From: Maribacter aquivivus
GTDB taxonomy: Bacteria; Bacteroidota; Bacteroidia; Flavobacteriales; Flavobacteriaceae
DNA: 64,000 nucleotides
Reading direction: 5' to 3'
NCBI RefSeq assembly: GCF_900142175.1
Contig: NZ_FQZX01000001.1
Coordinates: 558,001 to 622,000, forward strand
Positions 45,922 through 52,257 of this stretch are shown in pieces. The position numbers were made by a program, and so were the translations under genes. Position 1 is the stretch's first letter; the number at the start of each line of letters is the position of its first letter. The notes beneath the pieces are model-generated. The model did not search any database. It saw only the letters and a program-made list of their open reading frames with translations, and was not told the DNA's origin.

Positions 45922-46491
45922 ATGTTGAAGAAAGATTTACGCATAAAATATTTAAAATTACGTAGTTCCCTTACACCCTCTCAATTATCTTCTCAAAGTA
46001 TAGCAATTGCGAATTCAGTTTTGCAATTGCCAATATGGAGCAATTCATATTTTCATATTTTTTTACCGATAGAACAAAAAGCTGAGATAAATACAGAAGG
46101 TATTATCTCAATACTTCTTGGTTTAGATAAAAATGTCATTGTTCCGAAAATTAAATCTTCTACACAATTAGAACATTTTCTACTTACCGACAACACAAAA
46201 TTTACTACCAATAGCCTAAATATACCCGAACCCGTTGACGGCATTACTATTGAACCAAAAAAAATAGATGTTGTTTTTATTCCCCTTTTAGCTTTTGACA
46301 AGACAGGAAATAGAATAGGATATGGAAAAGGATATTATGATCGATTTCTCAGTGATTGTAAAGAGGATATCATAAAAATTGGACTATCTTTCTTTGAAGC
46401 AGAAGACTCAATAGATGATGTTGACGCTACAGATATACCTCTCGATTATTGCGTAACACCTAATAAAACCTATTCTTTTAAAACGCCTTAA
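45922..46491 (+). CDS. 5-formyltetrahydrofolate cyclo-ligase
   Basis: The enzyme uses ATP to convert 5-formyl-THF to 5,10-methenyl-THF, recycling a folate that inhibits one-carbon enzymes. The 189-residue protein has the N-terminal KKDLRIKYLKLRSSLT, a middle PKI block and the ATP-binding signature FDKTGNRIGYGKGYYDRFL. Its stop codon nests with that of lspA on the other strand (TTAA at 46488-46491). Confidence 0.95.
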   Translation: MLKKDLRIKYLKLRSSLTPSQLSSQSIAIANSVLQLPIWSNSYFHIFLPIEQKAEINTEGIISILLGLDKNVIVPKIKSSTQLEHFLLTDNTKFTTNSLNIPEPVDGITIEPKKIDVVFIPLLAFDKTGNRIGYGKGYYDRFLSDCKEDIIKIGLSFFEAEDSIDDVDATDIPLDYCVTPNKTYSFKTP

Positions 46492-47141
46492 TCTTGTAGG
46501 CTTTCTACTTCTTGTGCTGACGTCTCTTCTTCTTTGTTAAATGCTCTTTTATTAAAAACCAGTAATATGCCCACACCTGTACTAATTGCAGTATCGGCAA
46601 TATTAAAAACTGGCTCAAAGAATCTAAAATTCTGTCCGCCTACCATAGGCATCCACGTTGGCCAAGTAGAATCTACCATTGGAAAGTATAACATATCTAC
46701 CACCTTACCATAAAATAACTTACCATAAGGTTCATCAGAAAATAAGGTTGCTACTTCATTATAGCTTTCATTAAAAATAGCACCATAAAAAACGGAGTCC
46801 AAAATATTACCTAACGCCCCGGCAAAAATTAATGAAACCGCCCAAATTAAGGTATTCGAGGCTTTTTTCTTAATGACATCAAAAAGCCAATATCCTATAC
46901 CAAAAATGGCAAATAATCTAAATACCGTTAAAACTAATTTTCCGATATTATCCGAAATAGGTAATACATCACTTAATTTTGCACCCCAAGCAGCACCTTC
47001 ATTTTCAATAAAAAGTATTTTAAACCAGTTAAATACCTCAACAGACTCTCCCAAAACGAAATGGGTCTTTATATAAATCTTACTCCATTGATCAATAATT
47101 AATATCAATAGAATAAACAGTACAGATTTTTTAATGTTCAT
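46488..47141 (-). CDS. lspA: Lipoprotein signal peptidase
   Basis: LspA removes signal peptides of diacylglyceryl-modified prolipoproteins, of which this window encodes several. The 217-residue protein has four membrane helices. The two catalytic Asp are in GNILDS and FNIADTAIS. It is longer than E. coli LspA (164) through an extracytoplasmic insertion of about 45 residues between the catalytic blocks and a charged C-terminal tail, as in other Bacteroidota. It lies downstream of ileS and the DksA-like gene on the same strand, with one unknown gene and a terminator in between. Confidence 0.95.
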   Translation of the reverse strand: MNIKKSVLFILLILIIDQWSKIYIKTHFVLGESVEVFNWFKILFIENEGAAWGAKLSDVLPISDNIGKLVLTVFRLFAIFGIGYWLFDVIKKKASNTLIWAVSLIFAGALGNILDSVFYGAIFNESYNEVATLFSDEPYGKLFYGKVVDMLYFPMVDSTWPTWMPMVGGQNFRFFEPVFNIADTAISTGVGILLVFNKRAFNKEEETSAQEVESLQD

Positions 47142-47174
47142 GGGCTTTCATCAATGAGCGCAAAAATATAAATA

Positions 47175-47795
47175 TTATTCGGTTTTAATGAGATCTATAT
47201 TTCCTGTAACAGTTTCTAATGTAAAAGTAGAATTTCCTTTTGGTATGAGATTCGCAGAAACCTCACCGTACTTACTTGTAGCACTTATAGCAGCTGCTGC
47301 AGAATAAACCTTAATATTACCACTTTGAGATTTTATTTTAGCTTCTGCCTCTATATTATTTAATATGCATGTACCGTCTGATAATGATACATGCAGTTCA
47401 TTATACCCCCCATCTAAAACCACCCTAGTATTGGTACCATAGATTTCTAGATTTTTATAAGAAGGGATTCTTAGTTTCAATAAAATTGAAACTACTTTAT
47501 GAGCACTTAGTTTATCATTAGGATTTTCGAAATTTGGAGTAAAGCCTGTTTCAACAATAATCGTAGAACCATTAGTTGAAACCTCTAAATCTAAGTCTTG
47601 ACTATATTCACCCTCCATTTCTGCTATGATACTAATTTCATTACTCTTACTTGTTTGTACCTCAACAGCAAAACAGTTAGTAGCATCAACCTGTATTAAA
47701 CTAATATGTTCTGCTAAAATATTTTCATACATTTTCTTTTGAGCACTGAGCCCAATAGAAAATAAAATCACGAAATATAATAGGGAAACTTTCAA
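47175..47795 (-). CDS. Secreted beta-repeat protein, DUF4097-like
   Basis: The 206-residue protein has a signal peptide ending GLSAQ. The rest is regular beta structure with repeated short strands (EVQTSKSNEISIIAEMEG, NLEIYGTNTRVVLDGGYNELHVSLSDGTCILNNIEAEAKIKSQSGNIKVYS), like the right-handed beta-solenoid adhesin-head proteins of the DUF4097/DUF2807 type. It lies between the DksA terminator and lspA (33 bases upstream of lspA), so it is probably co-transcribed with lspA. Function unknown. Confidence 0.7.
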   Translation of the reverse strand: MKVSLLYFVILFSIGLSAQKKMYENILAEHISLIQVDATNCFAVEVQTSKSNEISIIAEMEGEYSQDLDLEVSTNGSTIIVETGFTPNFENPNDKLSAHKVVSILLKLRIPSYKNLEIYGTNTRVVLDGGYNELHVSLSDGTCILNNIEAEAKIKSQSGNIKVYSAAAAISATSKYGEVSANLIPKGNSTFTLETVTGNIDLIKTE

Positions 47796-47810
47796 AATAA
47801 AAGCTATTAA

Positions 47811-47832
47811 AAAACGCCCCTAAAGGCGTTTT
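47811..47832 (-). terminator. Terminator after the ileS-dksA-like unit
   Basis: An 8-bp stem (AAAACGCC with GGCGTTTT) and 6-base loop are followed by five T on the minus strand. It sits 2 bases after the DksA-like stop codon and separates that unit from the next genes. Confidence 0.75.
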
Positions 47833-47834
47833 AA

Positions 47835-48218
47835 TTATGACTGCATATTTTTAGCTTCAATACTTAATGTAGCATGTGGCACAAGTTTTAACCGCTCTTT
47901 ATTAATTAGTTTACCTGTTACACGACATATACCAAAGGTCTTATTTTCTATACGTAACATCGCATTCTTAAGGTCTCTAATAAACTTTTCTTGCCTAATA
48001 GCCAATTGCGTATTTGCCTCTTTACTCATAGTTTCTGACCCTTCTTCAAATGCTTTGAAGGTAGGCGACGTATCATCGGTACCATTATTACCATCGTTCA
48101 TATAAGCACTTTTCAAGAGCTCTAAATGGCTTTTTGCCTTTTCTATCTTCTCTTCAATCAATACTTTGAATTCTGCCAAATCTTTGTCAGAATACCTTAC
48201 TTTTAAATCTTCTGCCAT
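47835..48218 (-). CDS. TraR/DksA family protein with degenerate zinc finger
   Basis: DksA-like proteins bind the RNA polymerase secondary channel and modulate transcription, often with ppGpp. The 127-residue protein has the long helical hairpin (about 10-90) and the C-terminal FGICRVTGKLINKERLKLVP block. Of the four zinc Cys only Cys98 remains: the others are Thr101, Ser119 and Ala122, so it should not bind zinc. I recall the same substitutions in other Bacteroidota homologues (unchecked). It starts 3 bases after the ileS stop and is co-transcribed with it. Confidence 0.88.
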   Translation of the reverse strand: MAEDLKVRYSDKDLAEFKVLIEEKIEKAKSHLELLKSAYMNDGNNGTDDTSPTFKAFEEGSETMSKEANTQLAIRQEKFIRDLKNAMLRIENKTFGICRVTGKLINKERLKLVPHATLSIEAKNMQS

Positions 48219-48221
48219 CTT

Positions 48222-51200
48222 TTAATGTTTTTCAATAAACAATTTAGTGTTCACCTCGTCAAAAGCAATTTCTACACCTTTGTCCAATTTTTCTACAAAA
48301 TTTAACTCCGCCGTTAAAGTCTCTGTTTTAATATACTCTACATTATTTTTTACAGCAACTTCAACAAAACCGTCTTTTAATACTTCAATTGCAATTTTAT
48401 CTGTAACCTCAAAACCAGAATCTTTTCTAATATTCTGAATTCTGTTGACCAACTCTCTTGCAATTCCTTCATTTCTCAACTCTTCATTAATTGTTACATC
48501 TAAGGCAACAGTTAATTTACCAGAGGTCGCTACCATCCAACCTTCAATATCTTGAGAAGAGATTTCTACATCCTGTAACTGTAAAGTAATACTTTTATTT
48601 TCTAATTGGATTGTTAATTCGCCATCCTGCTCAATTTTTTGGATGTCATTCTGATCAAAACCATTGACAACTTGAGCAATTTGCTTCATTTCTTTACCGA
48701 ATTTTGGACCTAACGTCTTGAAATTAGGCTTAATACGTTTTACTAATATTCCTGATGCATCATCTAGCAGTTGAATTTCCTTAACGTTAACTTCAGATTT
48801 TATTAATTCTGACACTGCTTCAATTTCTTCCCTGTCTTTATTATCCAATACAGGAATCATTATTTTCTGCAACGGCTGACGCACTTTTATCTTTTCTTTC
48901 TGACGAATTGATAACACCAAAGAAGAAATAATTTGCGCTTTCTGCATTTTAACTTCTAAACTCTTATCAATAAGTGACTCATCTGCAACTGGAAAATCTG
49001 CCAAATGCACACTTTCAAAACCATCTTTTACGGTAGCTTTATTCAAATCTAAATACAATTGATCCATAAAAAATGGTGCAATTGGTGCTGATAATTTTGC
49101 AACAATATCTAAACATGTGTATAAAGTTTGGTATGCCGCAATTTTATCTTGAGCATATTCTCCTTTCCAGAAACGTCTTCTACACAAACGAACATACCAG
49201 TTACTTAGATTCTCTTGAACAAAATCTGATATAGCTCTTGCAGCACGTGTTGGTTCATACTCGTCATAAGCCGTGTCTACAGTTTTAATCAATGAATTTA
49301 ATTCTGATAAAATCCAACGGTCTATCTCTGTACGTTCAGTCATCGGTACATCTGCTTCGGCATAAGTAAACTTATCTAAATTAGCATACAAGCTAAAAAA
49401 GGAATAGGTATTATATAAGGTGCCAAAGAACTTACGCTTTACCTCAGCGATACCTTCAGTATCGAACTTCAGGTTATCCCAAGGGTTGGCATTACTAATC
49501 ATATACCACCTTGTAGCATCTGCACCATGCTCATTCATAGTTTCAAAAGGATCTACAGCATTACCTAATCGCTTAGACATTTTCTTACCTTCTTTATCAA
49601 GAACAAGTCCGTTAGAAACAACATTTTTATACGCAACTGAATCGAATACCATAGTTGCAATTGCATGCAAGGTATAGAACCAACCTCGTGTTTGATCAAC
49701 ACCTTCTGCTATAAAATCTGCAGGAAATGTCTTTCCTTCATCTATCAACTCTTTATTTTCAAATGGGTAATGCCACTGGGCGTAAGGCATAGAACCACTA
49801 TCAAACCAAACATCGATTAGATCACTTTCACGCTTCATTGGTTTGCCAGATGAAGACACTAATGCAATCTGATCAACAATATTCTTATGTAAATCTATTT
49901 TATCGTAGTTCGCATCAGACATATCATCAACTACAAAATCTGCATAGATATCTTTTTCTAATACCCCCGCTTCAACTGCTTTGGCCATTTCTGACTTTAG
50001 CTCTGCTACAGATCCTATTATTATTTCTTCCTTACCATCTTCTGTTCTCCAAATTGGTAATGGAATACCCCAATAACGTGATCTAGAAAGATTCCAGTCA
50101 TTTGCATTCGCCAACCAATTACCAAATCTACCTTCACCAGTTGCTTTTGGCTTCCAGTTAATAGTTTGGTTCAATTCAAACATTCTATCTTTTACATCGG
50201 TCACTTTAATGAACCAAGAATCTAATGGGTAATATAATATTGGTTTATCTGTACGCCAGCAGTTTGGGTAACTGTGCACATACTTTTCTACCTTAAAGGC
50301 TTTATTTTCTTCTTTCAGCTTAATGGCAATTTCAACATCTATAGAACGTTCTGGCGCTTCACCATCTTCATAATATTCGTTCTTAACATACTTACCACCC
50401 AATTCTTTTAACTCTGGCCTAAACCTACCTTGCAAGTCAACTAAAGGAACCAAGTTTGCATTTTCATCTAATACTAACATTGGTGGTATTTCTGGCACCG
50501 CCTGCTTTGCAACAAGGGCATCATCTGCACCAAAAGTAGGTGCGGTATGTACGATACCTGTACCATCTTCGGTAGTCACAAAATCACCTGCAATTATTCT
50601 GAAAGCATTTTCCGCATTTTCATAAGGAAGTACATAATCCATTAACTGCTCATAACGAACACCTAATAAATCTTTTCCCTTAAACTCTTTTACAACATAG
50701 AAAGGAATTTTTTTGTCACCAGACTTGTATTCTAATAACTCAGCCTTCTCTGATACTTCTTTGAACTTACCTGAGAATTGTTTGCCTACCAAATTCTTGG
50801 CAAGTACAACATTCATAGGCTCAAAAGTGTATTGATTGTAAGATTCAACTAATACATAATCAATTTTAGAACCTACAGTCAATGCTGTATTCGAAGGTAA
50901 TGTCCAAGGGGTAGTTGTCCAAGCTAAAAAGTAAACTGTGCCTTCGTTCTGTAAGAAATCTGGCAATGTTTCTTCTACAGCTTTAAACTGAGCTGTTACC
51001 GTAGTATCAGTCACATCCTGGTAGGTACCTGGCTGATTTAGCTCATGAGAGCTTAACCCAGTTCCTGCTTTTGGTGAATATGGCTGTATGGTATAACCCT
51101 TATATATTAAATCCTTTGAATATATCTGTTTTAACAACCACCAAACAGTTTCCATGTATTTGGACTTATAGGTAATGTACGGATCCTCCATATCTACCCA

Positions 51201-51620
51201 ATACCCAACTTGTTTGGTCATCGAATTCCAAACATCGGTATATCTCATTACCGCTTTTTTACAAGCAGCATTATATTCTTCTACAGAAATTTTAACTCCG
51301 ATATCCTCTTTCGTAATACCCAGTTCTTTCTCAACACCTAATTCAATAGGAAGACCATGAGTGTCCCATCCAGCCTTACGCTTTACTTGAAAACCTTTCA
51401 TGGTTTTATACCTTGGGAAGATATCTTTAATGGTTCTAGCCATTACATGATGAATACCCGGCATACCGTTTGCCGATGGCGGACCTTCATAGAATACATA
51501 ACTATCTTTACCCTCACGAGTAGATATACTTTTTTCAAAAATGGCATTCTTTGACCAGTAGTCAAGTATTTCTTCTGCGACCTTTGGTAAATTCAATCCT
51601 TGATATTCTGTGAACTTCAT
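48222..51620 (-). CDS. ileS: Isoleucyl-tRNA synthetase, type 2, with GIHH signature
   Basis: The 1132-residue length and sequence fit the eukaryote-like IleRS2 class. The start PPSANGMPGIHHVMARTIKD corresponds to PPxANG-xx-HxGH, but the class-I signature reads G55-I-H-H58 instead of HxGH. The second signature KMSKRLGN is intact, as are the editing-domain block GTGIVHTAPTFGADD and the tRNA-binding WYVRLCRRRFW region. In IleRS2 this GxHH swap is reported to go with hyper-resistance to mupirocin. It is the only ileS in the window. The DksA-like gene follows 3 bases downstream. Confidence 0.98.
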   Translation of the reverse strand: MKFTEYQGLNLPKVAEEILDYWSKNAIFEKSISTREGKDSYVFYEGPPSANGMPGIHHVMARTIKDIFPRYKTMKGFQVKRKAGWDTHGLPIELGVEKELGITKEDIGVKISVEEYNAACKKAVMRYTDVWNSMTKQVGYWVDMEDPYITYKSKYMETVWWLLKQIYSKDLIYKGYTIQPYSPKAGTGLSSHELNQPGTYQDVTDTTVTAQFKAVEETLPDFLQNEGTVYFLAWTTTPWTLPSNTALTVGSKIDYVLVESYNQYTFEPMNVVLAKNLVGKQFSGKFKEVSEKAELLEYKSGDKKIPFYVVKEFKGKDLLGVRYEQLMDYVLPYENAENAFRIIAGDFVTTEDGTGIVHTAPTFGADDALVAKQAVPEIPPMLVLDENANLVPLVDLQGRFRPELKELGGKYVKNEYYEDGEAPERSIDVEIAIKLKEENKAFKVEKYVHSYPNCWRTDKPILYYPLDSWFIKVTDVKDRMFELNQTINWKPKATGEGRFGNWLANANDWNLSRSRYWGIPLPIWRTEDGKEEIIIGSVAELKSEMAKAVEAGVLEKDIYADFVVDDMSDANYDKIDLHKNIVDQIALVSSSGKPMKRESDLIDVWFDSGSMPYAQWHYPFENKELIDEGKTFPADFIAEGVDQTRGWFYTLHAIATMVFDSVAYKNVVSNGLVLDKEGKKMSKRLGNAVDPFETMNEHGADATRWYMISNANPWDNLKFDTEGIAEVKRKFFGTLYNTYSFFSLYANLDKFTYAEADVPMTERTEIDRWILSELNSLIKTVDTAYDEYEPTRAARAISDFVQENLSNWYVRLCRRRFWKGEYAQDKIAAYQTLYTCLDIVAKLSAPIAPFFMDQLYLDLNKATVKDGFESVHLADFPVADESLIDKSLEVKMQKAQIISSLVLSIRQKEKIKVRQPLQKIMIPVLDNKDREEIEAVSELIKSEVNVKEIQLLDDASGILVKRIKPNFKTLGPKFGKEMKQIAQVVNGFDQNDIQKIEQDGELTIQLENKSITLQLQDVEISSQDIEGWMVATSGKLTVALDVTINEELRNEGIARELVNRIQNIRKDSGFEVTDKIAIEVLKDGFVEVAVKNNVEYIKTETLTAELNFVEKLDKGVEIAFDEVNTKLFIEKH

Positions 51621-51807: not shown

Positions 51808-52257
51808 ATGAAAAAAGTAATTTTAGGATCATTAGCAATTTTAGCACTTAGTTTATCTGTTTCTTGTAGAGATGCAGCTGATAAAGCTAAAGCAGCAACA
51901 GATGAAGCAGGAGCTGCATTAGAAAATGCTGGTGACGATTTAAAAGAAGCTGGCGAAGGTGCAATCGACGCTGCCAAAGAAGCAGGACAAGAAGGTATGG
52001 ATGCTGCTAAAGAAGCTGGCGAAGGCGCAATGGATGCTGCTGGTGATGCTGCTGATTCAGTAAAAGAAGCTGGTCAAGAAGGTATTGATGCTGCTAAGAA
52101 AGCTGGTGAAGATACTATGGATGCCGCTAAAAAAGCAGGTCAAGATGGTGTTGATGCTGCAAAAGAAGCTGGTAATAACGTAAAAGATGCTGCTAATGAT
52201 GCAGCTGACAAAGCAGCTCAAAAAGCTGAAGATGTAAAAAATGCGGTTAAACACTAA
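51808..52257 (+). CDS. LEA-like hendecad-repeat lipoprotein
   Basis: The 149-residue protein has a lipoprotein signal ending SVSC (Cys20). The mature part is built of 11-residue units of the form AGQEGMDAAKE, five or more of them, with one 18-residue variant in the middle. It has no Trp, Tyr, Phe or Pro after the signal and would form a highly charged amphipathic helix. This is the pattern of group-3 late-embryogenesis-abundant and YtxH-like stress proteins. I infer a desiccation, salt or freezing role at the membrane. It is monocistronic and has a clear terminator. Confidence 0.85.
   Translation: MKKVILGSLAILALSLSVSCRDAADKAKAATDEAGAALENAGDDLKEAGEGAIDAAKEAGQEGMDAAKEAGEGAMDAAGDAADSVKEAGQEGIDAAKKAGEDTMDAAKKAGQDGVDAAKEAGNNVKDAANDAADKAAQKAEDVKNAVKH

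Follow-up and report, generated by a model that had tools for sequence, protein, structure and literature searches.

A GIHH signature in the type 2 isoleucyl-tRNA synthetase of Maribacter aquivivus and its predicted resistance to mupirocin

Does the isoleucyl-tRNA synthetase (IleRS) of Maribacter aquivivus carry GIHH at the positions of the class I signature HXGH, and would such an exchange make the enzyme hyper-resistant to mupirocin? The question was raised by a preliminary description of the window, that is, the whole stretch of 64,000 nucleotides analysed here (contig NZ_FQZX01000001.1, positions 558,001 to 622,000). The features concerned are as follows, in window coordinates.

48222..51620, minus strand: ileS, encoding isoleucyl-tRNA synthetase type 2 (IleRS2), 1132 aa, from TIGR00392, Pfam and IleRS2 structures
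51465..51482, minus strand: PPSANG block, residues 47-52, which anchors the GIHH motif
51447..51458, minus strand: class I signature GIHH, residues 55-58, replacing HXGH, from the reading frame and alignments
49758..49772, minus strand: HYPFE, residues 617-621, a type 2 motif according to PMC4861432
49569..49583, minus strand: KMSKR, the second class I signature, residues 680-684, common but not universal in relatives

The ileS gene and the columns of the class I signature

The 1132-aa product passed the NCBIfam ileS equivalog model TIGR00392 with 993 bits (cut-off 621.4), and Pfam assigned to it the domains tRNA-synt_1, Anticodon_1 and DUF5915, together with an incomplete match to another class I domain, tRNA-synt_1g. 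Its identity to the IleRS of named Maribacter species was 94-96%, which supports assignment to this genus by homology. Downstream of ileS, ORFs are located at 47835..48218 and 46488..47141 with one more between them (span 46488-48218); judged by eye, we take the first to resemble a DksA/TraR-type protein and the second to resemble the signal peptidase LspA. An ORF of 149 aa upstream of ileS on the opposite strand (51808-52257) is repetitive, with a high content of Ala, Asp, Glu and Lys and a lipoprotein-like start.

The reverse complement of 51447-51458 reads GGT ATT CAT CAT, so that codons 55-58 of ileS encode Gly-Ile-His-His, and both the coordinates and the reading given in the preliminary description were exact. 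The motif is found in the context EGPPSANGMP-GIHH. HMMER (phmmer) aligned GIHH without gaps to HVGH of the wild-type P. megaterium IleRS2 chains 8c8u and 8c8v, and also to GVHH of the mutant chain 8c8w. In a MAFFT alignment of IleRS with seven relatives and with the genome's own ValRS, LeuRS and MetRS, GIHH was placed on the HxGH columns of the paralogues, which served as an internal control and read LHMGH (ValRS), LHVGH (LeuRS) and IHIGH (MetRS) at these columns. The proposal that the first His and the Gly of HxGH are exchanged was thus borne out by two alignment methods, and among the four class I enzymes compared the swap was present in IleRS only. GIHH, whose first residue is Gly and whose third and fourth are His, falls under the G/AXHH criterion (Gly or Ala first, His in the last two places). 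A misalignment, with the true HxGH at some other place and GIHH unrelated to the signature, was refuted by the gap-free match to HVGH and GVHH of solved chains and by the columns of the three paralogues; nothing was found in its favour, and its probability is negligible.

Enzyme type and copy number

The preliminary description had linked the swap to IleRS2 enzymes. The top solved relatives of IleRS in the phmmer search were the four chains of P. megaterium IleRS2 (787-799 bits), followed by 1ile (714 bits), which we take to be the Thermus enzyme, and then by chains named cytoplasmic IleRS (608-649 bits). P. megaterium IleRS1 scored 305.3 bits (8c9f, GMHH mutant) and 297.2 bits (8c9e, wild type), and 1ffy, presumably S. 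aureus IleRS1, scored 300.8 bits. The best match was the GVHH mutant 8c8w with 798.9 bits, just 5 bits over the wild type. According to the data availability statement of PMC10485003, 8c8u and 8c8v are wild-type HVGH chains, 8c8w is the GVHH mutant and 8c9d is a W130Q mutant. HYPFE, which sets apart eukaryotic and eukaryote-like (type 2) IleRSs (PMC4861432), is present in IleRS and was exact in 159 of the 173 relatives read; it is used as supporting evidence only, because it is not strict. Judged from the bit scores (787-799 for IleRS2 versus 297-305 for IleRS1) together with HYPFE, the enzyme is of type 2.

Resistance of the organism had been predicted provided that this is the only ileS in the genome, and the genome search supported the proviso. 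The genome comprises 4.58 Mb in 11 contigs and is rated 100% complete and 0.19% contaminated. The ileS profile gave nine matches, of which one was above the cut-off, and the other eight were located in three frames of 897, 1016 and 695 aa. By length and motif context, these frames are ValRS, LeuRS and MetRS, all with canonical HxGH. No second ileS over the IleRS cut-off was found in this genome.

Distribution and origin of the swap

The motif was surveyed in two sets of relatives, which may overlap in species. The first consisted of 80 named genomes, namely the top ones among at least 592 confirmed matches, and included Maribacter, Muricauda, Tenacibaculum and Flavobacterium; all 80 loci carried GXHH (60 GIHH and 20 GVHH). 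The second was a draw of 296 genomes, including the genome under study, from the phylum, judged from the named relatives to be Bacteroidota; 96 of the others were examined and 199 were left unread. GXHH was detected in all of the 30 best-scoring loci, in all 27 readable loci among 30 with weak scores, chosen by eye (two or more with slightly lower scores were not included), and in all of 36 picked by hand from the matches listed, which favour high scores. The draw thus gave GXHH in 93/93 readable loci of 96 examined, and the two sets together gave GXHH in 173/173 readable loci of 176 (146 GIHH, 25 GVHH and 2 GLHH). A reversion to HXGH was found in none of the 173 readable ileS genes, including the 27 readable weak-scoring loci in which it was specifically sought. 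Since the same swap is present in every readable relative, GIHH is not a pattern produced by chance or by sequencing error, and its presence throughout is consistent with a motif that an essential enzyme can accommodate.

The PPxANG pattern left 27 loci unmatched, namely ileS of 23 relatives, the ValRS, LeuRS and MetRS of the own genome, and one spare locus (L167). In some relatives, PPxANG of ileS is replaced by PPxVNG. Rereading of the 23 relatives' loci assigned GXHH to 20, and the remaining three (L142, L148 and L149), which are the three unreadable loci of the survey, were without the start of ileS. At another locus (L143, genome G272), ileS is broken up into matches that overlap but lie in different frames, and the downstream piece has a TAA within its open frame; the split may be due to a frameshift or an assembly error.

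The second class I signature of IleRS, KMSKR, differs from KMSKS in its fifth residue. KMSKR was present in 79 of the 80 named loci, and in wider relatives the R was also replaced by S, T, K, N or H, in each case with GXHH. The idea that KMSKR goes together with GXHH was abandoned, as GXHH occurs in all readable relatives whatever residue stands fifth in the second motif.

It is most likely, judging from these comparisons, that GIHH is a trait long established in the lineage, in an enzyme class that is already known. Since GXHH occurs in every readable relative, the swap is not distinctive of the own genome, and zero reversions in 173 readable genes point to ancient fixation rather than to drug adaptation of this organism. 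The breadth of GXHH likewise suggests deep inheritance over a response of the organism itself to the drug. Alternatively, the swap could be a recent adaptation of the strain or genus to a producer of mupirocin-type compounds, of which the marine thiomarinol makers are an example. This would suit the habitat of the named relatives, which are largely marine genera, but it is at odds with the presence of GXHH in 80/80 named relatives and 93/93 readable genomes of the phylum draw (96 examined) with no HXGH, and we consider it very improbable. We rather favour the broader reading that GXHH is fixed throughout the Bacteroidota and that hyper-resistance to mupirocin at the target level would be ancestral, predating and independent of the exposure of any living strain.

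A different view of the origin is that the swap is mainly neutral, a tolerated variant of type 2 enzymes, of which resistance would be a seldom-selected by-product. This view, which is compatible with the explanation preferred here, accommodates GXHH in all readable relatives as well, and PMC10485003 describes activity as mildly affected by the motif and reports natural reversion in Deinococcus-Thermus. The same paper, however, ties the motif causally to large increases in the mupirocin Ki and makes the case that natural mupirocin has selected for it. Neutrality is accordingly a substantial possibility, but one against which we lean slightly.

Predicted resistance and comparison with known enzymes

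The report to which the preliminary description referred, of some IleRS2 enzymes that carry the swap and are hyper-resistant to mupirocin, exists (PMC10485003), and its content is as described there. The G/AXHH signature was found there in 86/379 IleRSs, all of type 2, and was gained at least twice. Type 2 IleRSs are 10^3- to 10^5-fold less sensitive to mupirocin than type 1. With HVGH in place of its natural ALHH, D. radiodurans IleRS2 had a mupirocin Ki of 8.1 instead of 6600 uM, and the swap to GVHH raised the Ki from 0.20 to 35 uM in T. thermophilus IleRS2 and from 1.08 to 460 uM in P. megaterium IleRS2. The effect of motif exchange varies by enzyme from 175- to 823-fold. The engineered swaps decreased kcat from 27.9 to 7.0 per second in T. 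thermophilus (~4-fold) and, in P. megaterium, from 66 per second to 6.2 (~11-fold), and two type 1 enzymes lost activity when swapped. The authors explain that in type 2 the helix tip with the motif is shifted, which allows the third His to stand in for the first, and that mupirocin would be hindered sterically by this third His; the clash comes from a model rather than a solved complex. The enzymes tested came from Deinococcus, Thermus, Priestia and (cited there) Streptomyces, which are outside the present lineage, and words starting with 'bacteroid' or 'flavobacter' do not occur in the main text of PMC10485003 (figures and source data excluded).

By homology with these enzymes, catalysis of the Maribacter IleRS would proceed via His57 in GIHH, and mupirocin would be sterically excluded by the swapped motif, as in the clash modelled in PMC10485003. 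As a result, the mupirocin Ki would be far over that of canonical type 2 enzymes with activity retained, which would confer resistance. We consider it very probable that this is the sole housekeeping IleRS of a Maribacter-like flavobacterium, of type 2 and with a natural GIHH swap, and that its mupirocin Ki greatly exceeds that of canonical type 2 enzymes while activity is kept. Hyper-resistance at the target level is thereby a fair prediction, well backed by homology, although neither Ki nor kcat is closely predictable, because the published effects vary by enzyme and engineered swaps cost activity.

The organism as a whole is likely to be resistant. The outer membrane of Gram-negative envelopes and efflux also limit mupirocin. 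For this reason, and because type 2 IleRSs are already less sensitive, resistance of whole cells would be weak evidence for the swap. A literature search by titles and abstract openings, in which subscription journals are thinly covered, yielded no mupirocin MIC for a flavobacterium among the papers listed. One Flavobacteriaceae draft genome has IleRS tabled via PATRIC as a resistance gene under mupirocin (PMC10835994), and in PMC13085705 mupirocin was merely predicted to increase the diversity of Bacteroidaceae isolates. Labels of 'mupirocin resistance' on ileS in genomes of this kind, such as that of PMC10835994, denote a housekeeping gene and no acquired determinant. The swap and its mechanism have already been published (PMC10485003), and the present analysis adds breadth, namely the swap in every readable relative sampled.

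Among known systems, Priestia megaterium IleRS2 is the highest-scoring solved relative and was matched across residues 16-1116 of IleRS. Unlike the present enzyme, it naturally has the canonical signature, HVGH, and it comes from an organism that possesses an IleRS1 besides, whereas the own genome has one ileS. MupA and MupB, for which NCBIfam has models of mupirocin-resistant IleRS, belong to the same enzyme family and gave 732.5 and 768.9 bits, but these scores are far under the model cut-offs (1900 bits). MupA and MupB are acquired extra copies, whereas the Maribacter gene is the sole ileS. The natural G/AXHH IleRS2 enzymes of Streptomyces griseus and Deinococcus radiodurans (PMC10485003) are, like the present one, of type 2 with positions 1 and 3 of HXGH exchanged. 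Both come from other organisms; the D. radiodurans enzyme has Ala at position 1 (ALHH) in place of the Gly found here, and the high Ki of the Maribacter IleRS is a prediction.
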